The translations under genes were made by a program, and so were the position numbers. Shown piece by piece: positions 502 to 51,528 of a DNA stretch of 64,000 bases (its first letter is position 1; each line of letters begins with the position of its first letter). The stretch is from Pseudo-nitzschia pungens. Taxonomy: Eukaryota; Bacillariophyta; Bacillariophyceae; Bacillariales; Bacillariaceae. The notes under the pieces are model-generated. The model did no database searches. It was not told the origin of the DNA and saw only the letters and a program-made list of their open reading frames with translations. The DNA lies in the NCBI GenBank assembly GCA_037355855.1, contig CM074759.1, positions 1,302,001 to 1,366,000 on the forward strand, written 5' to 3'.

Positions 502-3500
502 ATGGCATCCCGAGAGAATGAAATATCTGCCGAAGATATAAGGGAGAGAGAACTGGGCCAACTCTTCCATCGAATAGCCCTCCTGGTGGCAAGGAAACCG
601 TCTGAGGAGGATGAAGATGGCAATGGCGTCGTCGTGACAACTTCCGACGAGGAGAAGTTGCGACTCTATGGCTTGTACAAGCGCGCAACCGCTGGCAGTG
701 ACAACACTGATGAAGATTTACTCGTCCTCGAGTGCCCCTTCCATTTTTCAACCCGTTGCACGTTCAAAATTCATGGCCTGGAAGGAATGTGCGTCGATGA
801 CAAGAAAGGATGCAATGGAAGAGTACGTAGGGATCGTAGCCTCGCGACAGGACAGAATTGGAGAGGAGTGCAGGTATCTCCGTGATCAATTTTACCGAAA
901 GAACAAAATTGTCCAGGACCAAAGGAATAGCAGCGGCAGCGGAATTTGTATACAACAAAGTTCGACGGAGAACGACGACAACAAAAAGGAAATTGATGCA
1001 GGGGGTAGCGCATTGTCGGCAGTACCGAAACTCCAATCAAAATTTTTGGGAGAAGACAGCGCTTCCACTGAATTTCATCATTCCTCGAAGGTGACAACCC
1101 AAAATGCGTCGATCTGCGATGGAATTGCAAAATGGATGGGAGTTCGACCTCTGGTACCACGTGGTCGTCTCGATGTTTCGTACAGAGACCTCGCTTTTGC
1201 CTTTTATCAGTGCACAATACAACAACGCCAGTCGAAAAAAGAGTTCGATGCATTCACGCGCAAAATCAATTCATTATGGGCACCATCGACCGTGTCGTCA
1301 TCGGCAAATGAGGAAAGTTCCGCTGCGGCAGCGGAAATTCCGTCGAAAGTTGTCGTTGGATTATCCGTACGATCTCTTTTTGACCTCTACCTCACAATGA
1401 AAAATTATCCAGATGACTCGGAGATTCTTGTTGTTCCACCGATCAGTGTGCCCGGGATGATGCACGTGGCACGATATCATAATTTGCGAATTGTGCCTGT
1501 GGACATCGACCATCGACAAGGAGGAAAAGGCGGTGACGGGACCCTCGAGATGCGCAACCCAAACCGGTGGATCAATTTAGAAGAGCTTGAGTCAAAAGTG
1601 ACGAACAAGACCGTAGCCATAATGCTAGTTCATCCTTTTGGAATTGTAACGACGGATGACGGAATGTTGACTAAATTGCGATACATTGCAGACAGACACC
1701 ACATTGAATTATGGGAGGATTGCGCTGAAACATTTACGGGGTTGGGTTCAGAAAATTATTTGGGGAGCAGCACGCATTCGGACATTCGATTTTTCTCCTT
1801 TGGAACCATCAAGACAGCCACTGCATTGGGGGGAGGTATTGCTCTTCTAAAGAATGGCGAGGTCGCTAGCCAAATGAACCGACTCCAACAGAGTTTGTAC
1901 AGAATTCAACAAACGCCAATGGAGTATTTTCGGAAAGTTCTGATCGCTCTCGTGCTTAACTTCATTGCTGACTCTCCCATGCGCGTGGGTCTACTTTCCT
2001 GGTTGTGTCGTTTGTGCGGATTCAGCTTCGATGTCCTAGTCACGCGTTCCGTGCGAGGTTTTCATATTCCAAACTCTACCAGAACAGCATTTGAGGACAA
2101 AAGTCGACCAAACAACAAACAAAGCGATGATCGTTGGATTCAAACTTATCTGGTCCGCCAAATTCGGAAGAGACCCTCGAATGCTCTTTTGGCCGTGCTT
2201 CATCGACGCTTCGAGCAGTCCAAACGGATAGCCCCGTCAGTACCTGGGCGAATACGACGTTGCAAGTTGGTGTCATCACTGCTGGAAAAAGAGATCCCAA
2301 ACGTCGTATTTCCAAGTCTCCAAAATTTTGTACATACCTATTGGGCATTTGCAATTTGTTCCCATGACCGGGAGACAGTCAGCAAGAATGTTCAAGCTGC
2401 TGGTTTTGATGTCGCTACTGGCGCTTCACAGCTGTGCTCTGTTTCTCAGTTTTGCGATAGCACGAATGCACGACAATGCCCTTCTACTGATGATCTCATG
2501 AGCTCGATTCTCTATCTTCCAATTTGTAGTCAACATCTTTCTGATTTGAAACTTGTGGAATTAATTCGTCAATTGAAAGATGCGCTCAATCCTCGAACGC
2601 TCGATTCTTCAAGTTCTCACGGAGACACAACAACAAGACGAAATGAACAGAAGCTCGCTGTACATCTAACGATACTCGTGGTACTAATCATGATCACTGC
2701 TACCCGGACCGGTCATCTATCTCCGGCAAGAATGTTTCAATTTTCATTGGCGATTCTTTCTGGATGCATAATAAGACTTTGCGGGGAAAAATTATTGCAT
2801 TGGACCACTGCTGAATTCTATTTGAAAGAGTCTACTTCATTTGCCGAGAATTGTGATATGATAGATGCTATTTGTGACGGCGAAGGAACGATATGCAATA
2901 AGTCGTCTATACAAACGTCAGAATGTTCAAAACAGCAGGGAGTTCTGGGTAGTATGGAATCCTTAAGGATCTTGGCTTCCTCGAGAATCGACGAATTGAA
3001 TTACAGGAGGACAGTTATCCTGACGGGAGCTACAGGTTTCGTAGGCTCAGCACTTCTGAGGGATCTAATAGTGAATAGAGACACACTATCACTGGGGAAG
3101 ATAATTATTATATGCCGAAAGAAAGGGAACTTCTCGGCAGAATCAAGATTAAAAAGTTTGCTGAGTAAACCAATCTTCGACTTTCTACCGGAAGAGGAAA
3201 AACTCTCGTTGATCGAAGTCGTTGAAGGAGACGTCACAATGCATTCCGCAGGTTTGTCTCCAATGAATTTGGCACGTATTGTACAGGACCCAGGTATAAC
3301 GCATGTCTTCCATTGCGCAGCGGCTGTCAGCTTCACATTGGAGTTTCCAAATGCAGCACAAAGCAACATAACTTCATCCTTGAATATGCAGACGTTAACG
3401 GGATGTCTGAAAAACAAAGAAGCACAATTCGTTCACATCAGCACTGCTTTCGTTCACGGGGATAAAATCGGATCAAAGGAATCACCACTGCCCGAAGAGC

Positions 3501-6500
3501 TTTTTGACTTCGAGTCTTTTGATCCAAACGAGATCTATAGATCGATGATTGGCACTCAATACTATGCAAGCAAGGCAATGGCAGAATTAAACTTCCCGAA
3601 CACATATTCCTTCAGCAAAAGTGTTTGTGAGCATTTGTTATCACAAAACAACCACATTGACACCCTCATCATACGTCCCAGTATCGTTGGGCCTGCAATA
3701 GAGACACCATTTGAAGGTTGGGCGGGGGATCGGCCATCAACAATCGTTGCTGGACCTTGCCTCCACTTAAGCCACCAATGGAATATCTGGCATCTTGGAA
3801 GACAACGTGCTACGTGTTTCCCTGTCGATTTGCTAGCACGCTTCATCATCGCAAAGGCCTTTCAAGATGATTCTAGTCAAGTAACTAATTGTTCAAATGA
3901 TGTTGAGTCTTCGTCCGACGGGAGTTTTGAGCGGATCAGCAACAGCAGTGATGGATATTCTGAATCCGAAGATATTGGGTCCACCGTGTCGTCACAGAGC
4001 ATGGTATGTTGTCGGCTCCCAAGGATATTTAATGCAACATGGGACACTGGATCGAGTCAAAATGCCTTATTTTCTTGGCTTGAATTCAGCGTAGCGTATT
4101 TGCACCTCGGATCAGTATTGGGATACTTTAGCCGATCAAGTGCCATGATGCAACTTTTCATATCGGCGCAAATGGTTCCAAGGGTCAAACCAAGTAACGG
4201 GACGTATGAATTGCTTCAAAACGTATTCATCCGGCCACCATTCGAGCTTGCTGCAGCCATTTATGAGCACATGGGATTGACGAATCTCAAACTCACGAAA
4301 CTCTTGACGTTTCTGGATCTCCCTCTGCTTTTTTATCCGTTTGTAAAAACAGAGTTCTATTTTCAATCTGAATTGTCTGCACCCCCTAACTTCAATGTAA
4401 AGCGGTATAGCTTTAGTTGTGGGGTCGCAGCTCATCGGTTCATTTCATCACGAGTGGGATCCAAAGAAATGGCATCGACTAGATCCGAGTCTCTAAAAAG
4501 GATGTCCTGTTACGCCGTGGGAGGAAAAAACCATTCACATGGTTCGTCCTATCTTTGGTGGGCTTTTTCTCAGCCAAGAGGAGATATCCTACTAAGGCTT
4601 GTGGCAGCATTTGTTGGTTTTGTACTCGGAGCAATTTCAACTGTAGTAACAGTTGATTTGAAGTCATTTCGCAACCATCTCTCGGCATTAAGATCAAAGG
4701 ACACCGATAGACCAGTTCACTTGGTTTTAGTTCCTACCCATCGATCATTTTTCGACTTCATCCTATTGAGTTACGTCTTCTTTACGTTGCCCGAGCTCCA
4801 GATAAACCTTCCTTTCATTATTGCCGCTGACGAATTTCAGCATCTTCCATTAATCGGCTGGTTGGCTCGTCAATTACAAGCATTCTATATTCAGAGAGGA
4901 AAAGGTAGAGCTGACGCAAACCTATCCAAAGACTTAGAATCACTGAAAGACCAAAATGGTGCCGTAACCTTCGAGGTTTTCATTGAAGGCAGAAGAAGCA
5001 GGGATCGTCGCTTTGTGGACCCCAAAACAGGACTGCTAAAGAGTCTCAAAGCTTCAGGAGGAGAGCATGTGATACTTCCCGTAACAATCAATTATGAATG
5101 CGTTGCTGAACAGCACATTTTATCGGAGGAAGCAGCTGGTTCCAACCGGAGAACGCTCAGCGTCACAGGTATGATTTTGTGGCTGAAGGAAGTCTTTAAA
5201 GGAAAAGTTGATATCGGGAAGGTTCACATCGCAGCCGCAGACCCAATTCCTTTAGACTGCAAATGTGATACAGATTTCAAACAATTGGTTGATGAAATAC
5301 AAACGAAGCAACAACAAGACATCGTCCTGTCTGACTACCACTTAAAGGCGGCTTCACGTTTGCTTGGCGTTGATTATTTCATTTTCAAAACAGCGTTGCC
5401 AAAACTTGGGTGCCGTTCTTGGCCTGACACTTGCATCTTCGAGTTGCCTGAGCTTCCTAGTGACTTGACCAATTTATTGACCGTTGTGTTGCATTTCGGA
5501 CATAGTCTCGCTCCTCTTTTCTTCGAAAATAGAAGAAAATGGTCCTTGTGGTTGAACCGACTCTGTACATCTAGTCTTGATGAATCCTTGTTTTCGGACG
5601 ATGACATCCAAATAGTGTACAACCGGTTAGGGGTATTGTTCGATTCTGCTGACACCGCAGTCAATGATGCAATTTCCAAACTAAAAAGTAAAGGATTCGA
5701 AGACCCTGACTGCGATCATGTCTTTCAAACAGCGGAGACGATGAAAACACTTGATGTCCCTGGACCAGTGATGCGTGCGGCTGTTCTGATGAGAATTCAA
5801 CGGAAAAAGGAAGAAGGCAACTCTCCTTCATCCCTGGTACCCGTCGACTACATGGTCCACGCCAACCTTTCTGATAGCGACGAAAAGATTGGATTCTGGG
5901 GATTTAAAGATTCGGGCTTCATTGCCAAAACCGACAATCGCGGGAGGCGATACGTTACAATGAAGGGCAAACGGTACGCGTTGTCCGGGAAGCGAATGAC
6001 CAAAATACTTCCGTTCATCGAATCCGCACTCAACGTCAAGATCAATACCTCGAACGAGTTTACTTGTATGCATCCAAGGTGGCATTCCACAGTGGAATCC
6101 GCCCTGCCCCCGGCCGATCAAAAGTATCTAGATACCCTGCTGCAAGGCCAGCTTTCGTTTTCCACCCCGGACCGACTTCGCCACGGGACGGGCCATTCCC
6201 AGGAGGACGTCTTTGCGATCCGGAACGGAGACGACATTCGCATACCCGACGCGGTTCTCTGGCCATCGTCGGAAGAGCAAGTCGTTGCCGTCGTCGATGC
6301 CGCGAGGCGCAAGGGTTGGTGCCTGATTCCATACGGCGGTGGCACCAACGTGATCGAGGCGACACGGTGTCCGTCCAAAGGGGTGGAACCGCGGCCGATC
6401 CTTACCGTCAGCACGAAACGACTGAATCGCATACTGTGGCTCAACGAGGAAGACGGCCTGGCGCACGTGCAAGCCGGCATCACGGGCCGCGAACTGGTGG

Positions 6501-7657
6501 AAACCCTCGATCGTCGGGGCTACACCATGGGCCACGAACCCGACAGCATCGAATTCAGCACCCTCGGCGGTTGGATCGCCACCAAGGCCAGCGGCATGAA
6601 ACGCAGCAAGTACGGAAACATCGAAGACATCGTGGCATCTTCCCGCGTCGTGGGCCCCAACGGCGTCCTGTGGAAGGGAGCCGGCGACCGGACCAAGATC
6701 GTCGCGGGACGCCACTCCGAGGGCCTGGACGTTCACGACCTGGCCTTGGGATCGGAGGGATGCCTCGGCATCGTCACCAGCGCGGTGATTCGCATCTGGC
6801 CCCTCCCGCAGGTCCGGACGCACGGCAGCGTCGTCTTTCCGAGCTTCCGGGACGGCCTGTTGTTTCTGCGGGCGCTCTCCCGGGAACCCCGCGCGATGCC
6901 CGCCTGCGTTCGGTTGCTGGACAACGCGCACTTTCGTCTCGGACAGGCCCTCCGGCCGGAGGAAGCCTCGTGGATCCGCCGCACGGGGGATGCTTTGAAA
7001 CGGGCCCTCGCGTCGGCGTGGTTGGCCAGCGGCTCCCTGGACCCTTCCTCCGTCGTCTGCGCCACCCTCAGCTACGAGGGAAGCGCCCGGGAGGTGGGGG
7101 ACCAAATGGAAGCCGTCGCGCGATTGTCTCGGACCCACGGGGGACTCCAGCTGGGAGCTTCCGTCGGCAGGGCCGGGTACGAGCTCACGTACATGATTGC
7201 CTACCTCCGCGACTTTGCCATGACCTACCGCGTCCTGGGAGAATCCTTCGAGACCTTTGTGCCGTGGTCCCGCATCGAATCGCTGATCGCCGCCACTAAG
7301 GAGCGGATTCGCGCCGAGCACGAGGCCCGGTTGCTCCCCGGCCGGCCCTTTGTGGGGTGCCGCGTGACCCAGCTCTACCACGAGGGAGCCTGCCTGTACT
7401 TTTATCTGTGCATCGGGTTCGAGGGAATCGGTGACGGGCGCGCCAGCAAGGTGTACGCCGAGCTGGAGAAGGCCGCCCGGGAGGAGATCCTCGAGCGGGG
7501 TGGATCCCTCAGCCACCACCACGGTCTGGGCAAGCTCCGGTCGTCCTTTGCCGGGGACCGCTCCTCGTCGGGATTCCAATCGGTGGTGGCATCCCTCAAG
7601 GAGAGCATGGACCGGGACAACGTGTTTGGAGCTCGAAACGGCCTGTTTGCACGGTGA
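502..7657 (+). CDS. Multifunctional ether-lipid synthase: ACBP + aminotransferase-like + fatty acyl-CoA reductase + DHAP acyltransferase + alkyl-DHAP synthase (one frame break)
   Basis: Modules in order, by nucleotide. 520-860: acyl-CoA-binding domain (LYGLYKRATAG, then SKFMAWKE and DAMEEYVGIV). About 1330-2580: DegT/StrS-type PLP fold with WEDCAETF and a likely PLP lysine in SFGTIKTATALGGG (near 1809). 2655-2790: hydrophobic stretch. About 3000-4000: NAD(P)-binding fatty acyl-CoA reductase (TGATGFVG; YSFSK catalytic Y-x3-K near 3605). About 4570-5750: PlsB/GNPAT-type acyltransferase (HRSFFD = HX4D near 4739; FIEGRRSRDRR). About 5820-7657: FAD-type alkyl-DHAP synthase (PYGGGTNV; HHHGLGKLR at the C-end). 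Known family roles: reduce acyl-CoA to fatty alcohol, acylate DHAP, swap acyl for alkyl. The first ACBP half is read from ATG 502; everything after about 740 lies one base out of frame and is open from 668. No GT..AG intron of suitable length explains this. The C-end (GLFAR) is not a PTS1 signal. Membership of each module is well supported; concerted function is inference. Confidence 0.88.
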
Positions 7658-8067
7658 GAACGGAACGGAACGGAAAAAAAGTCGCAGTCGCGACGACTTT
7701 GAGAATAACCGTACGGTTCGATTGGAGTGCTTTGCAATCCTACGAAATCTTTCAAGTATCATTAATGTTACAATAATAAAATAATATAATAATCCGTAAT
7801 AGCTCATAAATGGTTACGACGATGACGTGATAGTAAGTCGTTGCGCAGATCACATTGGTTTGCGCGGAATGGAAATGATACTCTCGAGGTCGAGTACCGT
7901 ACCGTAGTCCGGTACGATGATAGCGCTGGTGCTCCGTTGTAACAGGATGCATTGCGTTCGCCCCGCGCGTGCTCATCACCAAACAAACAAACAAACAAAA
8001 ACAAAAAAACGCCGAACCGCGACCGTTCCCGCATTTCATCTCGTCGCGCGGTACCTCATTTATCATC
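7658..8067. other. Convergent 3' gap
   Basis: Lies between the ends of two converging genes. It holds an AT-rich stretch (7755-7800) likely used for 3' ends, and an AAAC-rich run near 7980-8010. No gene is supported. Confidence 0.4.
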
Positions 8068-8631
8068 TCATCCGAAGCACTCCCGCTTCCTCCCCCGCAT
8101 CCGCACCTGTTCGAGGCGTTGCAGCGTGGTATGGTTGTGGAACTTTCGCTTCTTGCCGTTTCCATTTCCATTTCCATTTCCATTTCCATTTCCATTTCCA
8201 TTTCCATCATCGTCGTCGTCCATCTCCACCTGGTAATCTTCCGTGACGGCACCGTATTCCTCCAGGACCCGGTCGAAGAAAGTGTCCGAGAGATCGGGAT
8301 GCGTCGACAGCAGGGCCCGTTCCAGGACGTAGAGGTCGACGGCCTGTTCCTCGACGCTGGCGGTGGATTTGGACAGCCCAAAGTCGATCAGCGCCAGTTC
8401 CGGTTCCGTTTGCGGTTCCGTTTCCGTTTTCGGTTCCGTCTCGTCCTTGTCGCCCTCGCTCGCCGGCAGCACGATCATGTTCGAAGTGGTCAAATCGCCG
8501 TGCACGATTCCAATGATGTGGAGCGTACCCACCAAGCGTCCCATTTTGCGGGCCAGGACCGTTTCGGATATCGCGGCGGACCCCGCGTCGTCGCTTGCGT
8601 CGCTGCCATTCTCTTTTCCGGCGCAATCGTT

Positions 8632-8664
<33 letters not shown>

Positions 8665-9045
8665 TTGGCGCTGTCGCTGCTGAAGGTACGACTTGACGCT
8701 CGGACCGTCGAGATACTCCAGGTACAAGCTGGGAGGCGAGACCCGGAGGACTTTTGGAACCCTTAGCCCGGTTTTGAGAGCGCATTTCCCCAAGAGTTTG
8801 GCTTCCGATCGGCACCGACTCTTGGTGAGACGAACGTCCAGATCGGGATGCCGGTAGGCCTTGGAAAAGCGCTCCTTGCAAATCGCGAACGATTGCTGGC
8901 TATTGCTGTCGTCGTTGCTGTTGTTGCTGCTGCTGCCCGAAGCGGGAATCTTCCAGACCCGGGCCTCCGCTCCCTGGGAGATAAGGGTCCATTCCTCTCT
9001 CGGGGCAGGATCGAAGGAGGGCTTGTCTTTGCCCTGTTGCGACAT
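8068..9045 (-). CDS. BUD32: Bud32/PRPK (TP53RK)-type atypical kinase of the KEOPS/EKC complex
   Basis: The 325-residue product has the compact kinase fold of Bud32, the KEOPS subunit needed for t6A modification of ANN-decoding tRNAs. Visible signatures: KERFSKAYRHPDLD near the start, catalytic-loop GIVHGDLTTSN (about residues 178-188), LIDFGLS (about 218, the DFG equivalent), AVDLYVLERAL and the family C-terminal tail RMRGRKRECFG. Two low-complexity insertions interrupt the fold: a poly-Q tract (about residue 125-138, CTGTTG repeats on the plus strand) and an Asn-Gly run encoded by a hexanucleotide repeat at 8158-8208. Both look like loop expansions outside the core. The start at 9045 leaves a short, plausible N-terminus (MSQQGKDKPSF). 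Identification is firm. Confidence 0.93.
8158..8208. repeat. (TTCCAT)n hexanucleotide repeat, coding for Asn-Gly in Bud32
   Basis: About eight consecutive copies of a TTTCCA/TTCCAT unit on the plus strand. Read on the minus strand they encode alternating Asn and Gly between the poly-Asp run and the conserved C-terminal tail of the kinase. The unit is a multiple of three, so length changes keep the frame. Confidence 0.9.
8631..8682. repeat. CTGTTG repeat coding for poly-Gln in Bud32
   Basis: Consecutive TGCTGT/TGTTGC units on the plus strand encode a run of more than ten glutamines on the minus strand, inserted between the N- and C-lobe motifs of the kinase. Confidence 0.85.
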
Positions 9046-9555
9046 GGTTGGTTGCTTTTGCTCGTTGGAAAGTGGTGCACTGTGCGCTGTGCACTCGACG
9101 GTTTGCGGTTCTTTCCTGGCTCGGTGTTGAGCTGGGACGAATTGGGATTGTTCGGGTTGGTGGATGTTTCGTTTTTGTAACTTTCGTTGATTGCGATGGA
9201 TCGTGGATCATTCATCTCATGTCACGGAGCATGTTGTTTCGTTTTTTGAGTGAGATGAGAGATCGATGGAGCGCGATATTGCGATTTTCCCCCAAAAAAT
9301 TAGGGGCGTCTGTACGTCGCACGAAATGAACGCTTGAAACGCTGCATGGGGGGCACGCAAATCCACGACTGGCAAAAGCCGAACCAACAACCAACACCGC
9401 TCTGGATCGTCGTTTTTGATCAATCACCGACCGATCTTCGATGATTGCAAATCGCAAGCTCCAATAATTAAGGTTTACCGTAACCGTACTCGTACCGTAG
9501 CGAACAACAAACAACATCATAGCGGTAAGGTTTAAATTAAGATTACTCGCAGTAC
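9046..9555. other. Divergent intergenic region between BUD32 and the LCMT-GNAT gene
   Basis: Separates two divergently transcribed genes and must hold both promoters. From 9470 to 9510 it carries GTTTACCGTAACCGTACTCGT-like words of the family seen in other gaps. No coding signal is supported. Confidence 0.4.
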
Positions 9556-9678
9556 GTGTTGTTTGTGGATGGACCAAGGCAGAGAGATTTGGAACGGATT
9601 AGCAGCGCATTGCCAGCACCCAACAAAGATTGTTGTTCACCCGAACCAATCCGTCCCCGATTGATTCTTTCTGCGACA

Positions 9679-9696
9679 ATGACAATGACAATGGCA

Positions 9697-9728
<32 letters not shown>

Positions 9729-10792
9729 TGCCAAGACGTGTTTCGACGCCATTCGGGCCAAGCAATCGGCGCTAGCGGCGGGATACGATCCCCTGGTGAC
9801 CGAGCGGTTGGATGTCTATCGATCCCTGCTCTCCAGGGCCGTCGATTCTTCCTCGGGAGACCGGAAAGCGAGACGGCAAACGCCCCTGGTCAACGCTGGC
9901 TACGCGACCCGGGTGCTGTCGATTTCGCAGGCGATTCGATCCTTCGTGGCGTACCATCGATGGGCATCTTCTTCTTCTTCTTCTTCTTCTTGTTGTTGTT
10001 GTTCGTCATCGTCGACGAGAGACCGAAAGAACAAGCAAGAACGAGACGGGAAGAAAACCGAGCATCCACGGCGTCGAAAAATTCGAATCGTCCTGCTGGG
10101 CTGCGGGGTAGACGTGATTGGATTGTGGGCCCGGTCGTTGCTGCCGGCAGACAGTGACGCCGGGAATCTGTCGATGGAGATCGTCGAGGTGGACACGCCG
10201 GGGGTTTGCTCCGTCAAGCGAGCGATGATTCGCGACCAGGGAATGGTCCGGAATCTGACCGAACGCATTCCCGAGCGCGATGCTGCCAGGTCTGCCCCGT
10301 ACTACACGGGGACCATCGTGGTTCCGTTCTCGGACAACGCCGGTTTGGGTTCGGATTTGGGTTCGGATTTGGGTTCGGATTCGGATTCGGGGGATGGCAA
10401 GCACGATTACGTCCTGGTTCCGGCCGATCTCAACGACGTTTCCACGCTGGATCCCGTGCTCGGAAACGGTCCCCGTAACGATCCATCCGCGGACGCTCTC
10501 GCGGTCCCGACCCTGGTCGTTTCGGAACTCGTCCTTTCCTACCTGGCTCCTTCCGGGACCGATGCCCTGCTGAAATGGTGCTCCGAAACGCTCTGCACGA
10601 CCCCCGACAGCGCCCTGGTGGCGCTCGAACCGCTGGGACCTCCCGGGAGAGCCTCCGAGACGTCGAATTCGACTTCGACTCCGACGTCCGCCGCAGTCGG
10701 ATCGGTGGAGGAGGGATACCGCAGGGATTACTGCCAGAAATTCCGCGACAAGCTGCAACGGGGACGACCATCATCATCAACATCGTCATCAA

Positions 10793-10829
<37 letters not shown>

Positions 10830-12054
10830 CGCGGCTCCCACGGGTTCCAACGAGGGATTCTTTCACCCCATTGGACGCTCCGAGGACGAAATCGCCCGGC
10901 GATTGGCAAAAGCCGGCTTTGGAAGGGCCTCGTCCGCGGCGAACCTCGGCGTGGTGTCCGCGTTTGCGGCTGCGGCTGCGGCGGCAGCTGCGACTCCGTC
11001 GTGTTCCGACGGAATCTCTGCGGCAGAGTGTCCCGAGCTCTTTGACGAGCACGCCGGTTGGATCCTCCACCTGCGGTCCTACGCCGTGGCGTGCGGATTC
11101 GGGGCGGGCCCGCACCGTCCGCACGGCGATCCGGCGGTCCTGCGCCGCCTCTTGTGTCCGTGGTCGGGACAACCGCAACATCCACAACATCCAAAACCAC
11201 AACCACAACCACAACCACAACCATCCGCATCTCGTCCCGACAAGGGAGGATCCGACCTGGCCGCGGTGCGGGCGGGACTGCCGTGGCTCGACGACTCCCC
11301 GCGCAACAAAATCGCCTACACGGAGATCGAAGAAGGCGACGAGGCTTCCGTCCGGGACCTCTTTGCGGCGACCTACGGCCCCGAATACACGGAAAAACAC
11401 CCCGCCATTCGAAAGCTGGTGAGGGCGGCCCTGAACAAGGACCTGAGGGGGACACCATCGAGCGAATCCGGGGGTGGCGACGCCGGAAGCGGCAGCCTTC
11501 GCGGATCGTCGTCGTCGTCGGCCATTGCCGAGTTTTATCGGTCCGCCGGGGGAATCTTCTTGGTGGCCGTCAAGTGGGATTGCGATGGCGACGGCAATGG
11601 CCGCCGGGAGGTGGTGGGCTGCGTCGGGATCCGATCCAGCGAGGGCACAAGGAAGGACGACGTTGGCAATGACAAACGACAAACCCAAGAAGGAGTCGTC
11701 CGCGCAACCTCCACCACCACCACACTGGAACTCTTTCGGTTGGCCGTCGACGTCCGCCACCGGGGCCAGGGGATTGCCGGCAACCTGCTCCGGGTCGCGG
11801 AAGCGCACGCGCGGGAACGGCAACGACAACGGCAACGGCAACGACAACGACAACGAACCAGATCGCGTGGGGATCACAAGCGCTCCCTCCGCGTCGTGGC
11901 CAGAACGCTCACCCTATTGGAGGCCGCCGGAAAGATGTACGAATCGGCGGGATACACGGCGGAGTCCGAAACGCCGCTCGGGGCGACCCAGCTGGTGCTC
12001 CGAACCTACGCCAAGGAACTGGAGGCGCCGGACGCACCGGGACCGCGACGGTGA
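9679..12054 (+). CDS. Leucine carboxyl methyltransferase (LCMT-type) fused to a C-terminal GNAT acetyltransferase domain
   Basis: The frame is open from an ATG at 9556 (832 residues). The cluster of ATGs at 9679 (MTMTMASSS) is a more natural start because the upstream part shows no conserved feature; the choice is uncertain. N-terminal module: LCMT1-like pattern TPLVNAGYATRVLSISQAI (near 9887), the SAM-binding motif IVLLGCGVDVIGLWARSL (near 10090), EVDTPGVCSVKRAM, VPADLNDV, and VVSELVLSYLAPSGTDALL (near 10516). In LCMT1 these residues methylate the C-terminal leucine of PP2A catalytic subunits. C-terminal module (about 11314-12010): IEEGDEASVRDLFAATYG and the GNAT acetyl-CoA loop VRHRGQGIAGNLL, ending in AAGKMYESAGY. 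Ser, Pro-Gln and Arg-Gln simple repeats lie between blocks. The acetyltransferase substrate is unknown. The fusion lies in one uninterrupted frame. Confidence 0.8.
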
Positions 12055-40311: not shown

Positions 40312-43300
40312 TTACGATTTACTAGGATCCCTGCAATAATAGGGGTGCACTCTCCTAATGTTAACCCGATCGGTTACAAAGGGAGCAGTTTCAATAGTTA
40401 CAGTTCCATTGTTATGGGCCTTGATCACCTTGTAAGGTCCTTGTCGTGGGAAGGATAGTTTCGGAACAATGCCCTTCCTTTCCAGGGTGACATAGTCTCC
40501 TTCCTTGTAGACATGGGGAATCCTCTTCTGATTCTCCCTGATATTACTCTTGTGGATACTCTTTTGTTTCCTTGCTTGGATTGCTTCCCAATCTACTGGG
40601 AAATTCACAGGCATGAACATGTCCCTTCCAAACACCAGTTGTGCTGGGGAATACCCCAGCGTTGTGTGGATGGCGCTTCTGATAGCATATGCTGCCTTGG
40701 TGGTGAATTCCTCAAAAGGGTCCTTCTCGTGGAGATCTCTTTGTTCCAGGTTAAAGGACAATAGGCAGTCCTTCAGGACCTGGTGGATTCGTTCCAGCAC
40801 TGAGTTGGATTGTGGGTTCCAAGCGCCACTGGGCTTTCTTTTCATCCCCATGTTGTCACAGAGCTCCTGGAACTCTGCTTTGAACTCACTCCCGCCGTCA
40901 AAGCCAATTTCCTTTGGACGCGGATATCGTGCTAGCCAAGTACTGTCCAACAATCGTTGAGTTTCTGCTGCATTTGGCGAGTCCTTCAGATGGGCCAATT
41001 CAAACCATCCGGTCACTGGGTCCACCATGGTGAGAACATGGATGTGGTAGTCTTTACCATTTTTATTGTGGACAGTTGCAGGTCCCCAGAGGTCCACATT
41101 GACCCTCTGCCATTTGGTAACCTCAGCTGCTTTCTCCGGTAGTAGTCCATACTTCTTCCGGCCACTCTTTTTGAACATCTGACACGTGTGGCAGTGCTTA
41201 CAGAGGTCCTGGACGTCCTTTCGTAGGCCTTTCCAGGTGAACACTGAGCGAATGCTCTGTTCCATTCTCTTTTCTCCGGGATGGACCAACATGCTGTGGT
41301 ACCATTCCATGACTCTGTCCTTGAGTTTGTCGGGAATCAGAATCTTTCCTTCTTTGTGGACTAGGTTGTAACCTTCCACCATTTTGGTGGTCAGTCGATT
41401 GTCTTTTTCCAAAGCGCTCATGATTTCTGCGTCCTTTTGTTGGTAGAACTGAATCATGTCTGGGGCAAGTGGGAATGCACTATTGCCCTGGAATTCTTCT
41501 GGCGCTTCCTCTCCAAGTGGGAATAGGAGCTGCCGGAGGTGCTCTTCCTCGTCCGCGTAGGTGAGGGGCTTATTTGGTGGTAGCCATTCCACAGTATCTG
41601 CTGGATCGTCGGTGATGTCCAGTCGGGATAGTGCATCTGCTGCATCATTGTCTTTGCCCGCAACATGCTTGACTACTGGATGGAACTCCTCCATAAGGAG
41701 TCTCCATCGTACCATTCGCTGGGTGGGCATCTGCTGGTACAGTAGGTTAAGATGATCCGTGTGAATAATCACATCTTGTCCTCGTAGGATTCCTTCAAAC
41801 GCTTTTAGCCCTTCTACTATGCCCAGGAGTTCTTTCTCTCCAACCGTGTAGTTGAGCTGCGCCGAGTTCAGCTTCCGGGTGTAGAAACCAAGGGGCTTGC
41901 CCTCTTGGCATACAGTTGCTCCCAGTTGCCGGTCACTGGCGTCTGAGTAGAGGTGAAATGGTTTCGTAAAATCCGGGAATGCGAGTTTCGCTTCATCTGC
42001 GAGCATCCTTTTCGCCTCCATGAAAGCTTTCTGCTCTGCTGGGCCCCAGTACCAATTTGTTTTGCCCTTCTTGCCCGCAAGCTTGTTGAGGGGGGCCAGG
42101 ATGTGGGAGCGGCGCTTCCACATGTCCCTGTAAAAATTGACCATCCCAAGGAACATCTTGAGTTGCTTGGTGTTCTTGGGGGGTTCCAGGCGCTTCATCG
42201 CCTCCAGTTTCTTTGGCTGGGGTTGAATGCCCTCTGTTGTTAGTAGAAAACCCAAATACTCCACTTCTTTTTGCATGAAGAAGGATTTTCTAAGGTTGGC
42301 TCGAAAGCCAGCGTCATCGAGCCTCTGTAGGACTGTATCGATTTTGTCGAGGTGATCCTGCTCAGATTCCCCCTCTTGTTGGATGATTAAGATGTCGTCG
42401 ATGTAGACGAGGACATAGTCCAGGTCGCCGAGTAGGTTCATCATGACGGACTGGAAGATATCCGGTGCGCATGCAATCCCCATAGCCAATCGCTTGTAGG
42501 CATACTTCCCCCATGGCAGGATGGTAGAGCAAATCTTTTGGCTCTCCTTGCAGATGGGGATGGTATAGTATCCTTGGGACAAGTCCAGCGCCGTAGCTGA
42601 TTTGAACTTTTGTAACCTTTGGATTGTTTCCCCTATTCGTGGTAGTGGGAATGGTTTCCGTTGAATGGCTGCGTTCATCTTCCGAAAGTCGGTTAGGACG
42701 CGAATGTCCCCTGTCTTCTTTGGTTGACAGAACGTCGGGGATGCCCATGGTGAGTCATCATCATGGGGAAGTTTCTCCAGGACTCCAATGTCACAGAGCC
42801 TGTTGATTTCCTTCCGGAGTGCTTGTTCAAAGGCATGGGGTACTGAATAGTACCTCTGCCTGACCGGTTTAACCCCTGGTTGGAGTTCAATAGATACCGG
42901 TTCAATATTCTTGAGCAGTCCCAGACCTCCTCCAAAGAGTGTGGGGAACTTCTTCAATGTTTTCTTCAGGGCCTCCTTAGACGCATCTGTGATCTCCAGG
43001 TCGTTGACCATGGAGTCTATATCTACTTTGGAGTAGTCAGCGTCCAGGATCTTGGCTTGCCTTTCTTCCTCGTGTTGGAGGATTGGACTCTGTGTGTTGG
43101 CAAAGAAGACTGCCTCACATTTGTCCGGGTCAGTGAGTTCCCCCATCCCCTTCATGGGGATGGAGTCACCTTGCCATGAGATTGTTCGGGAGCTGTATTT
43201 GATATCTAGTCCCAATTGTGCCATTAGATCAGATCCTATGATCACGTCATAGGGTACTTCCTCGTGGTGATGATACTCATCCACTTGGAAGGTCCACTTG

Positions 43301-43578
43301 ATGGTCTTTGAGTTTGAAAACTCTATCAACTTCAGTCCCACTGAAGCCGCGGACTTTGTTCGAAATTTGCCCCCATAGGTATTATAGGTGACAGATCGTT
43401 GGTCCCGGTTCGTAAGTTGACTGCGGTCGACAAAGTGTCTTAGGATTATGGACTTGGAGCAACCTGAGTCCAGTAGACCCCGGAGCATCCTCCCCCTTCC
43501 TTTATGGTCCAATACCTCCACACAGACGTCCGCAAATCGATTGATTATGCGTGGTCCAGTGTGGATGGTATCAGCCAT
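40312..43578 (-). CDS. pol: Retrotransposon Pol polyprotein (protease-RT-RNase H-integrase)
   Basis: 1088 residues, uninterrupted. Aspartic protease LLDSGCSKS (about residue 36). Reverse transcriptase with VLVYIDDILI (about 391). RNase H with HLYSDASDRQLG (about 542). Integrase zinc finger H...CKHCHTC (about 795), catalytic core VDLWGP (about 829), GFDGGSEF (about 894) and NSVLERIH, then a GPYKV (GPY/F) module. There is no chromodomain after it. The first codon (ATG at 43578) directly follows the gag stop TGA and is in the same frame, so Pol could be made by stop readthrough or by re-initiation rather than by the frameshift common in this superfamily. All catalytic motifs are intact. Confidence 0.95.
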   Translation of the reverse strand: MADTIHTGPRIINRFADVCVEVLDHKGRGRMLRGLLDSGCSKSIILRHFVDRSQLTNRDQRSVTYNTYGGKFRTKSAASVGLKLIEFSNSKTIKWTFQVDEYHHHEEVPYDVIIGSDLMAQLGLDIKYSSRTISWQGDSIPMKGMGELTDPDKCEAVFFANTQSPILQHEEERQAKILDADYSKVDIDSMVNDLEITDASKEALKKTLKKFPTLFGGGLGLLKNIEPVSIELQPGVKPVRQRYYSVPHAFEQALRKEINRLCDIGVLEKLPHDDDSPWASPTFCQPKKTGDIRVLTDFRKMNAAIQRKPFPLPRIGETIQRLQKFKSATALDLSQGYYTIPICKESQKICSTILPWGKYAYKRLAMGIACAPDIFQSVMMNLLGDLDYVLVYIDDILIIQQEGESEQDHLDKIDTVLQRLDDAGFRANLRKSFFMQKEVEYLGFLLTTEGIQPQPKKLEAMKRLEPPKNTKQLKMFLGMVNFYRDMWKRRSHILAPLNKLAGKKGKTNWYWGPAEQKAFMEAKRMLADEAKLAFPDFTKPFHLYSDASDRQLGATVCQEGKPLGFYTRKLNSAQLNYTVGEKELLGIVEGLKAFEGILRGQDVIIHTDHLNLLYQQMPTQRMVRWRLLMEEFHPVVKHVAGKDNDAADALSRLDITDDPADTVEWLPPNKPLTYADEEEHLRQLLFPLGEEAPEEFQGNSAFPLAPDMIQFYQQKDAEIMSALEKDNRLTTKMVEGYNLVHKEGKILIPDKLKDRVMEWYHSMLVHPGEKRMEQSIRSVFTWKGLRKDVQDLCKHCHTCQMFKKSGRKKYGLLPEKAAEVTKWQRVNVDLWGPATVHNKNGKDYHIHVLTMVDPVTGWFELAHLKDSPNAAETQRLLDSTWLARYPRPKEIGFDGGSEFKAEFQELCDNMGMKRKPSGAWNPQSNSVLERIHQVLKDCLLSFNLEQRDLHEKDPFEEFTTKAAYAIRSAIHTTLGYSPAQLVFGRDMFMPVNFPVDWEAIQARKQKSIHKSNIRENQKRIPHVYKEGDYVTLERKGIVPKLSFPRQGPYKVIKAHNNGTVTIETAPFVTDRVNIRRVHPYYCRDPSKS

Positions 43579-49086: not shown

Positions 49087-51528
49087 TTACGACAGAATAT
49101 CTTGTATTGTGGCCATGTCTGCAATCATTGTGGCCGAGGTTTGGAGAATAGGAACCGCAAGCAATGCCCCCGTACACTCACCCATTCTAAGTCCCATGGA
49201 AAGAGCCGGTGAGGCCGGAACTGGGAGATTATACTCCTTTGCAATTGCTTGGATCTGTTCGATTGCTGCCTGCTGTCCCTTTTCAGCCGATTTCGTTGTC
49301 AAGAATAGCGCATTACAAACGCTTGGTTTCATCCGAACCGCTGCCAATGCAGCTGCCGTGACAATGAAACCATCTACCAAAACAGCTACATTTCGATCCG
49401 AGGCTTCGATCATTGCTCCAACCAAAGCTGCAATTTCTGAACCACCCACCCTCGAAAGAATAGAAATAGATTCATTCAAAGACCCCTTGTGCTTTTTCAA
49501 CGCCCTTTCCACAATATCAATCTTCTTCTTGATTTTATCATTATCGGCTGTATGAGAATTGAAAGCTCCTCCACCGCATAGGTCTTCCACAGATTTGCCC
49601 GTCAGAGCAGCAATCAGCGTGGATGCCGTGGTCGTATTTCCTATTCCGACTTCACCGAGAGCCACAACCTTGCAATTTTCTTCCTCTACTACTTGTGCAA
49701 TGGTATCTTTTCCAATTTTTAGGCATCGCTCCATTTCTTCGATAGACATTGCAGGCTCGACACAAAAGTTGCGAGTACCCGTGGCAAGTTTGTTTGTTGC
49801 CGAGTTCACAAAGGTTCCTGAGTATGAATCACCGAGTACTCCCACGTCCACGACGCTCAATTTCAAGCCTAGTCCTTTCGCTAACACCGATGCACCTGCC
49901 ACATTTCGTTGTAGCCCTTCCAATATAGCTCTGGTTACTACTTGCGGATACAATGAACATCCTTCTCCACCATCTTCCGGGGCCGCAGCCACCCCGTGAT
50001 CCCCCGCAAAAATTATCGCATTCACGGCGTCAGCTTTGGGACTCAAACTATTTTGTAGGACAGAAAGACGAGCTGCCCATTCTTCCAGTGTACCTAGCGA
50101 CCCAACTGGTTTGGCTAAGGCATCTAGATAGGCCTGCACCGCATTGTGTTTGTCCATTGTCGTCGCTGTTGAATTCAAGACCTTTTGAGCTGTTTCCTTC
50201 GGCGACGATGGAGACGAAGGTTCATCTTCACTTACTTGGACCGACTTTTCCTCTGCGATGTCCTTGTGCTGTGCTTCATTTTGTGCATGTTTTCTGTCCA
50301 AGAAAGCAACAAATCCACACCAAAATTGGTACAATGTGAACATAGACCCAAAGCGTAGAAACAATCGTAGGTTTTCGTCTTCCAGTAGGGACTCCAATCC
50401 ATTCGACGATGCTTTAGTGCTGTTACTCAACACATTCAAACAAGATTTTATAAGTTCCGACACCGGACCTCCTGCTAAGCTTGCGTAGATAAACAGTTCT
50501 ACGACACAAATTGTGCCACCGAGAAAGTCACCCATTACACCCCCGAGTTTCCTTCGTGCGTATAGTCCTGCACACTCGGCACAAATCCAGGAACCCATCA
50601 TCAAGTGCACTGCTAGGTGAGGCCCGTAGAAGGCGCTTGTCACCCCAAAGCAAAACAGGATAGAAAAGAAGATACGAGGGAGGCTGACCAAAAACTTGGC
50701 TCGAATCATAAACGCATAAAAGGTCGACTTCGGACCGTCTTCCTCGATGTAGTCGCACCTCCAAATCAAATATGGGGCCGTCAACCGAGCCAAAGTGTGA
50801 CTGACGCGACAATGGAATACAGACAAAATTTCATTGAAATGAGCCAATACTACACGTACGGTGATCCAAGTCAAACCATAGCATCGAATTCGATGAGGCA
50901 CTCACGCAACAATCAATGCCGGTCCCGCACCCTGGCTTGATTCGGCCTCGGTCTCTGCACCGGCACCGATGGAAAGGATTTTCCAACTGGATGGACCTAA
51001 TGCTGCCAAAAGTTGCAACTTCGTAAACACGTAGAGGATCAAAGCTGCAGAACCAAAAGTCCCTAATCTACTGTCGGACATGATTCTCAAAATTTGTTGT
51101 TTCGTCCATCCTCCTCCCATTCCGTCAGCCGTATCGGCCAAACCATCCTCGTGCAAGCATCCCGTGATTTTCAGACTCGCGGCTGTACTTAGGGCCGCTG
51201 CAGCCACTACCGGTAGCCCCCATAAGAGTACCCCCAGGTCGAAAACTTGTGACACAAGACAGCCTACAATAGCTCCGACGACAGGGAAATAGCACATCCC
51301 CTTCATCAAAAGTCCGGGATGAAGTGCTGTCCAACTCAGAGGAGATGGCAGAGCCGTGACAAACCCAAAGATATTCGTAAAGCATTTTGCCTCGGTTTTC
51401 AAACCAAATGCATTCTCCTCCAAGAATGCTTCGATTTCGTTTGCGACTTCATCGCGAGATTGATTCTTACCACCTCCGAAACCGCGAGATTCGACCGTGC
51501 CAGGGTCCAACACGTTTTTTTCGGACAT
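49087..51528 (-). CDS. cobS-cobT: Fused cobalamin synthase (CobS) - nicotinate-nucleotide:DMB phosphoribosyltransferase (CobT); two exons
   Basis: Exon 1 is 51528-50906 and exon 2 is 50800-49087; the 105-base intron (50905-50801, GTGAGT..GTCAG) splits a codon (GC|T) in phase 2, giving 778 residues. The first ~370 residues are CobS: FVTALPSP, the metal-binding GCLHEDGLADTADGMGGG, IMSDSRLGTFG, and after the splice HTLARLTAPYLIW and GGVMGDFLGG, with several membrane helices. The second half is CobT: KPVGSLGTLEEWAARL, IIFAGDHGVA, GEVGIGNTTTAS, and RMGECTGALLAVP carrying the probable catalytic Glu. CobT makes alpha-ribazole phosphate and CobS joins the ribazole moiety to AdoCbi-GDP. The fusion would couple consecutive reactions at a membrane. 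Introns on this and the CobU gene argue against bacterial contamination. Confidence 0.93.

Follow-up and report, generated by a model that had tools for sequence, protein, structure and literature searches.

Here, we analysed a 64,000-nucleotide stretch of the diatom Pseudo-nitzschia pungens (GenBank assembly GCA_037355855.1, contig CM074759.1, positions 1,302,001 to 1,366,000 of the forward strand; the whole stretch is called the window below), and found a single uninterrupted open reading frame (ORF) on its plus strand, at 668-7657, that encodes 2329 amino acids plus a stop. A Pfam scan of this ORF placed in it five modules, from the families of acyl-CoA-binding protein (ACBP), DegT-type aminotransferase, fatty acyl-CoA reductase (FAR), acyltransferase and alkyl-dihydroxyacetone-phosphate synthase (AGPS). 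The predicted five-module ether-lipid multienzyme is widespread in diatoms. The aminotransferase, left unexplained in the initial annotation of this DNA, is the most informative module, and together with bacterial operons in which a DegT gene and an epimerase-family gene replace each other, the architecture hints at an undescribed nitrogen-containing ether lipid. We are evenly balanced in our confidence that the protein is a membrane-attached ether-lipid multienzyme whose DegT module aminates the glycerone ketone.

Modules, active sites and homologues of the fused protein

The Pfam matches along the ORF were, in order, ACBP (C-terminal half; 29.8 bits against a cut-off of 28.3), DegT_DnrJ_EryC1 (58.5 bits), NAD_binding_4 (133.6 bits), Acyltransferase (66.8 bits), FAD_binding_4 (120 bits) and FAD-oxidase_C (87.4 bits), and the NCBIfam relatives included thioester reductase, PlsB, PseC and GlcD, with all of the 25 families listed (out of 33) below their cut-offs. 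The initial annotation had read the whole ether-lipid pathway into one polypeptide; the motifs that it named were confirmed in the ORF, the domain search put the FAR-like, acyltransferase and AGPS modules in the families that it proposed, and the catalytic residues are kept in nearly all of 54 homologues. "Whole pathway" was an overstatement, since no Pfam or NCBIfam match suggestive of an alkyl-dihydroxyacetone-phosphate (alkyl-DHAP) reductase module was found in the polypeptide (the rest of the diatom genome was not searched), and we therefore describe the protein as an alkyl-DHAP multienzyme.

Catalytic residues were tallied over the 54 five-module homologue rows. The Lys and Asp of the pyridoxal phosphate (PLP) site of DegT, the Tyr and Lys of FAR and the His and Asp of the acyltransferase are each kept in 54/54, and the AGPS module keeps its Arg in 54/54, its Tyr in 52/54 and its third His in 51/54, the shortfalls being gaps. 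The DegT module has a Type I PLP fold, with the catalytic Lys in an SFxxxK motif and the PLP Asp, and is a conserved and probably active part of the protein. The FAR module contains NAD_binding_4 with TGxxGxxG and YxxxK motifs, and its modelled fold, including the C-terminal helical part, matches plant FAR. The model also matches thioester-reductase-type R domains, some of which release aldehydes; the product may be an alcohol rather than an aldehyde. The FAR_C family (PF03015) was undetected by sequence both in the Pfam scan of the ORF at E<=1 and in the precomputed lists of the 120 listed homologues, and a search of the window's own genome with this family gave no match, its controls being equally silent. 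The acyltransferase carries PF01553 with HX4D and EGxRSR motifs, and the AGPS partner, the one basis of this assignment, points to dihydroxyacetone phosphate (DHAP) rather than glycerol-3-phosphate as its acceptor. The AGPS module consists of FAD_binding_4 and FAD-oxidase_C, and the last 590 residues of the ORF match guinea-pig AGPS, for which structures have been solved. It has R2082, Y2244 and H2283-2285 (the HHH motif), which are conserved among the 54 relatives, and R2082 and Y2244 align where chains 4bc7 and 4bca differ from 4bby; we take these two chains to be mutants of catalytic AGPS residues.

A homologue search returned 141 proteins, 120 of which are listed, with module content judged by alignment coverage. 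Among these 120, 54 have all five modules, 7 lack ACBP only, 11 comprise FAR, acyltransferase and AGPS, 1 comprises acyltransferase and AGPS, and 47 lack AGPS. Many of the alignments cover 99% of the query, with 37-68% identity, which excludes chance. The five-module rows with source names include Nitzschia, Seminavis, Fistulifera, Thalassiosira and Cyclotella, so that the architecture indeed recurs in other stramenopiles; Triparma (a bolidophyte) lacks ACBP only, and Pycnococcus (a green alga) has FAR, acyltransferase and AGPS. Three five-module rows are derived from transcriptomes, namely P0017, P0041 (Chaetoceros sp. GSL56) and P0057 (Thalassionema nitzschioides), the DegT of the last being missing from its source's Pfam list yet covered by the alignment. 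Continuous transcripts, which the initial annotation had proposed as a check, therefore exist in relatives.

We considered the AGPS-less four-module class as a paralogue family and rejected this in favour of mostly truncated gene models. Exactly at residue 1458 end 14 of the 47 models, and many others end soon after a conserved SWLkV-like stretch and continue into unrelated tails, as at introns; these shared stop sites and unrelated tails suggest models cut at introns. In the DegT tree, P0073, P0090 and P0116 of this class fall inside the five-module set and P0104 branches within the same algal clade. When the window's own genome (66.9 Mb, 28 contigs) was searched with introns ignored, the FAR-acyltransferase and DegT modules matched this locus only (E<=0.01), and AGPS also matched two GlcD-like places, where about 200 residues align with 25-31% identity; because the search ignores introns, a diverged, intron-rich copy could be missed.

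The one point at which the gene does not read through is ACBP. The initial annotation had assumed one continuous frame from 502, but the two halves of ACBP lie in two frames, the change from frame 1 to frame 2 falling between about 711 and 735, and 502-7654 read in one frame contains 97 stops. PF00887 is in the precomputed Pfam list of most homologues, whereas the domain is split in the window. Because ACBP is read through in one frame in the four relatives compared (P0001, P0002, P0004 and P0010, the last a JGI model coded Psemu1, presumably Pseudo-nitzschia multiseries), an assembly slip appears to be the likeliest cause, and the locus may instead carry a genuine frameshift. An intron was also considered and rejected: among pairs with a donor from 690 and an acceptor before 760, no GT-AG pair has the right length, and the sole fitting GC-AG pair (691-715) would give an intron of 25 nt, which is unusually short.

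Near the AGPS junction, GC content increases from ~0.45 to 0.55-0.63 (window positions 5900-12000). Within the ORF, GC at third codon positions (GC3) climbs from ~0.45 to ~0.85 near this junction, and the GC rise extends over the next genes. Antisense to the AGPS module, at 6131-7807 on the minus strand, there is an open frame of 559 amino acids with no Pfam match, which is probably a by-product of the high GC3.

Table 1. Positions of the ORF, its modules and its hydrophobic segments in the window
Feature	Position	Strand	Details
ACBP, N-terminal half	502..714	+	frame 1; PF00887 24.5 bits, below cut-off 28.3, residues 45-71 of the frame from 502
Main ORF	668..7657	+	no internal stop; many homologues align over 99% of length
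ACBP, C-terminal half	728..835	+	frame 2; PF00887 29.8 bits, ORF residues 21-56
DegT-type PLP aminotransferase	1115..2707 (modelled span)	+	Pfam match 1430-1891; catalytic Lys codon 1811-1813, PLP Asp codon 1718-1720
Hydrophobic segment between DegT and FAR	2654..2710	+	hydropathy scan
Fatty acyl-CoA reductase (FAR)	2945..4702 (modelled span)	+	NAD_binding_4 3020-3847; Tyr 3605-3607, Lys 3617-3619
Hydrophobic segment directly before acyltransferase	4598..4654	+	hydropathy scan
GNPAT/PlsB-like acyltransferase	4718..5089	+	PF01553 66.8 bits; HRSFFD (HX4D), EGRRSR; PlsB models and GPAT chains matched
Alkyl-DHAP synthase (AGPS)	5891..7639	+	phmmer to guinea-pig AGPS 4bby, E 1.5e-135

Bacterial operons and the descent of the modules

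Bacterial relatives of the DegT module were confirmed in 152 cases, and the best 80 loci were examined. In two Gemmatimonadota loci (L057 and L064), the genes for AGPS, FAR-acyltransferase (one ORF) and DegT stand in a row with their ends overlapping or touching, and a PlsC-type acyltransferase gene comes next after DegT. At L031, DegT is convergent with a different type of AGPS and a FAR. A FAR match was present in 3 of the 80 DegT loci within the stretch examined. We also conducted searches led by the FAR-acyltransferase, which matched 9 of 346 Gemmatimonadota genomes at E<=1e-15 (5 of them with long matches) and, at E<=1e-40, 38 of 377 genomes in the phylum of a Lujinxingiaceae metagenome-assembled genome (MAG). 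Regions were obtained from 33 of these 38 genomes, and 41 loci were examined in all.

A fused FAR-acyltransferase was found in 33 of the 41 loci, in operons with the order AGPS, FAR-acyltransferase, third gene. AGPS is just upstream of the fusion in 28 of the 33, and the other 5 are cut off at that point by a contig end. The third gene belongs to the NAD-dependent epimerase/dehydratase family in 26/33 and is DegT in 3/33 (L057, L064 and L167), and none was seen in 4/33, two of which are at a contig edge while L164 and L175 leave 1.5 and 3.2 kb of room. FAR or acyltransferase is separate in the remaining 8 loci, six of which have AGPS. In the order of genome G001 alone, the search made without DegT matched 7 of 288 genomes and gave three DegT and four epimerase loci. 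No epimerase match was detected in the three DegT-operon genomes (0/3 at E<=1e-20), and all four of the epimerase-operon genomes tested matched the epimerase within the operon, one of them being the query's own genome. Alkyl-DHAP, the product of AGPS, carries one ketone. If the third gene is a ketone reductase, alcohol-making and amine-making genes are natural alternatives at the same ketone substrate; the epimerase-family protein would reduce, and DegT would aminate, the same sn-2 ketone of alkyl-DHAP.

Further operons were not found among 317 genomes in the phylum of G348. In the phylum of G351, 2 of 314 genomes matched, both outside the tally of 33: one has a FAR-acyltransferase with no AGPS or DegT match in the stretch examined, and the other has AGPS and FAR at a contig end. 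Of twelve further genomes, 5 had FAR or acyltransferase matches, all of them partial.

Flavoenzymes are another kind of partner of bacterial DegT. GlpD-like or DprE1-like proteins, which a Pfam scan and a clustering of neighbours brought out, are beside or fused to DegT in 14 of the 80 loci, four with a GlpD-like glycerol-3-phosphate dehydrogenase and ten with a DprE1- or lactone-oxidase-like FAD oxidase; the representatives scanned were below NCBIfam cut-offs. GlpD and DprE1 convert alcohols to ketones. In an Actinomycetota MAG (L077, 8001-11495), genes for DegT, a GlpD-like protein and a PlsC-type acyltransferase stand in a row, and in a Bacteroidota MAG (L079, 7986-10832) DegT is fused to a GlpD-like flavoprotein. 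DegT occurs with a DprE1/lactone-oxidase-like FAD oxidase in L028, L030, L032, L037 and L043 and in L009, L011, L012, L014 and L044, as one ORF (Acidobacteria MAGs) or as adjacent genes (mostly Planctomycetes), the domains having been checked by Pfam in L028, L032 and L044; this pair appears to be a separate oxidase-aminotransferase system. A dominant neighbour of the bacterial DegT subfamily was sought and rejected, as a Pfam scan of 93 of the 112 immediate neighbours picked found no family in more than three.

In the AGPS tree, the algal fused clade (19 rows, support 100/99) is sister to the bacterial operon clade (34 rows, 100/98), and with a midpoint root guinea-pig AGPS falls outside (95/90), with Dictyostelium AGPS distant on a long branch. 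In the DegT tree, built by a quick method, the algal modules stand apart from the operon DegTs, which belong to a bacterial clade of 16 rows (99); support at the deepest forks is weak. It thus appears that DegT became associated with FAR, acyltransferase and AGPS on two or more occasions, and this recurrence speaks for a functional link. Descent of the algal fusion straight from a DegT-type operon is not supported, with AGPS sister to the whole operon clade and DegT grouping apart, and the origin is left undecided by the FAR and acyltransferase trees. The initial annotation had named FARAT, the FAR-acyltransferase fusion of Dictyostelium, as a precedent; a shared origin is not shown, because in the FAR tree (unrooted, quick method) the ciliate FARAT (Euplotes P0245) lies with other FARs and not with the algal FAR domain, and its acyltransferase row is extremely long-branched. 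Two eukaryote-like proteins, P0241 and P0244, have hydrophobic stretches before FAR; the DegT profile matched neither of them, though the start of P0241 resembled the end of the DegT module.

A candidate amino ether lipid and the alternatives

Given this gene context, DegT may aminate a DHAP-type ketone. In the pathway that we propose, ACBP would present acyl-CoA, FAR would turn one acyl-CoA into a fatty alcohol, the acyltransferase would place a second acyl group on DHAP, and AGPS would swap this acyl group for the fatty alcohol to give alkyl-DHAP. The PLP-dependent DegT module would transaminate alkyl-DHAP (alternatively DHAP or acyl-DHAP) at the sn-2 ketone in place of the usual reduction, and the product would be 1-O-alkyl-2-amino-2-deoxyglycerol 3-phosphate, an amino ether lysolipid, which a separate acyltransferase could N-acylate to a ceramide-like ether amide. 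That diatoms, and independently some Gemmatimonadota, make such a 1-O-alkyl-2-acylamido ceramide-like lipid without serine palmitoyltransferase, with the diatom assembly line as far as the amine in one polypeptide, is a more tentative proposal, which we hold at somewhat under even confidence.

The hydrophobic segments cluster between DegT and FAR (the 55 sequences scanned have 36, 16 and 36 of them in the bins for residues 660, 680 and 700), and the enzyme is predicted to be bound to a membrane outside the peroxisome lumen. A peroxisomal site, the setting that the initial annotation gave for the animal proteins, is not indicated, because none of the 55 five-module sequences, the window included, has a classical type 1 peroxisomal targeting signal (PTS1) at its end; nor does any of 18 partial ones, and 1 of the 47 AGPS-less models does. 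Phaeodactylum is described as having no PTS2 import (PMC9244630, which, like the other papers cited here, is drawn on in excerpt).

Several points weigh against amination of the glycerone ketone by DegT. The count of third genes is biased, since it was a DegT search that first brought up L057 and L064; the three DegT operons belong to a single bacterial order, so that one event may account for them, and the MAGs may be incomplete. The epimerase-family third gene is a presumed ketone reductase, and its best NCBIfam match is HpnA, below the cut-off. None of the partners looked for was present in 63 of the 80 bacterial DegT loci. Almost all of the solved structures closest to the DegT module are of sugar aminotransferases; ArnB, PseC and perosamine synthase share its fold and PLP site at 14-20% identity in structural alignments, but act on nucleotide sugars. 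Moreover, because the algal and operon DegTs do not group in the DegT tree, their functions may differ. The fusion itself lacks an N-acyltransferase, and a literature search on names of amino or amide ether lipids found no such lipid. The sequences show which modules are present, how they are ordered and conserved, that they keep catalytic residues, and that the bacterial genes are linked; we infer each activity, the step order, the DegT substrate and the membrane attachment.

A more conventional multienzyme, in which a separate short-chain dehydrogenase reduces alkyl-DHAP and DegT is structural, regulatory or outside the pathway, seems to us unlikely, at roughly half the weight of amination. 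It accords with FAR, acyltransferase and AGPS modules that look complete and with a reductase that is a separate protein in mammals and Dictyostelium, as excerpts of PMC9131029 and PMC13256971 have it. However, retention of the PLP-site Lys and Asp in every five-module row makes a mere DegT scaffold unlikely, and bacteria have linked DegT to FAR and AGPS separately. Less probable again is amination by DegT of a fatty aldehyde made by FAR, which would yield a long-chain alkylamine and amine-linked lipids besides ether lipids; the resemblance of the FAR model to R domains and the aldehyde product proposed for Myxococcus ElbD (PMC9131029) favour it, but FAR accompanies DegT in so few bacterial loci, while GlpD-like or DprE1-like flavoenzymes do so in 14 others, that we consider it improbable. 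That adjacent genes were run together or the assembly mis-joined is highly improbable and already refuted for the family: the ACBP frame break, the GC3 rise near the AGPS junction and the Psemu1 model P0010, which stops before AGPS, speak for such an artefact, but the 2329 codons are uninterrupted, the GC rise covers the next genes too, and the architecture is common to 54 homologues, three of them from transcriptomes.

Fusions of FAR and DHAP acyltransferase have been described in Tetrahymena, Paramecium, Dictyostelium, Polysphondylium, Phytophthora and Naegleria (PMC3143110; also PMC7375469), and excerpts of the 2011 survey report no such fusion in Thalassiosira pseudonana and Phaeodactylum tricornutum (PMC3143110), an absence in two species to which the fusion in other diatoms now adds. 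FARAT (Tetrahymena TtFARAT, Dictyostelium) resembles the diatom protein in having FAR and then DHAP acyltransferase in one chain and the same order, and is thought to supply both AGPS precursors (PMC7375469, PMC13256971), but the excerpted accounts describe no ACBP, DegT or AGPS module in it; Dictyostelium FARAT has an SKL end and is peroxisomal (PMC7375469), unlike the five-module set without PTS1. Animal FAR1, GNPAT and AGPS are of the same families and perform the same three chemical steps, but as three separate peroxisomal or peroxisome-associated proteins, with no aminotransferase in the portion consulted (PMC9131029).

The Myxococcus xanthus operon MXAN_1676-1674 encodes AGPS, a FAR1-like/GNPAT-like fusion and a NAD-dependent epimerase/dehydratase (PMC9131029), in the gene order of most of the bacterial loci found here. 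It differs from the diatom fusion in having separate genes and no ACBP, and in that an epimerase-family protein occupies the place taken by DegT in the diatom fusion and in three Gemmatimonadota loci; disruption of MXAN_1676 only slightly reduced ether lipids (PMC9131029). Myxococcus ElbD is also a multidomain ether-lipid protein with FAR-like and acyltransferase domains (PMC9131029), but has acyl-CoA ligase and carrier domains, and the same partial source describes no AGPS or aminotransferase in it. Three bacterial loci (L105, L106 and L107) contain frames of 1461-1586 amino acids with a FAR-like domain, two with a weak acyltransferase match, which are ElbD-like in size. As for the proposed DegT step, RtxA of the rhizobitoxine pathway is a precedent for amination of DHAP itself by a PLP enzyme, as it converts the DHAP ketone to serinol phosphate (PMC3222319); by the excerpted description, and the likeness is one of description rather than sequence, it belongs to a small-molecule pathway and is fused to a different enzyme.

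A literature search on diatoms with these enzymes or ether lipids found no description of the fusion, subscription journals being mostly outside its coverage, and a joint search on AGPS, aminotransferase, ether lipid and operon found nothing on point. If the DegT step is true, abundant marine algae and bacteria would make a lipid class absent from the literature searched. Even without this step, many diatoms have a predicted five-module ether-lipid protein, for a pathway unreported in that literature. Moreover, the swap of epimerase and aminotransferase in the operons offers a clean comparison for assigning both the Myxococcus epimerase-family gene and DegT.

Other features of the window

Downstream on the plus strand, 9679-12051 encodes a leucine carboxyl methyltransferase-like domain and a weak GNAT-like domain with long serine and repeat tracts. 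On the minus strand, 40315-43578 is a retroelement with reverse transcriptase, RNase H and integrase domains, and 49090-50709 gives a strong match to the DBI_PRT phosphoribosyltransferase, which is unexpected in a diatom; we take DBI_PRT to be the CobT family, acting at the lower-ligand step of cobamide synthesis.

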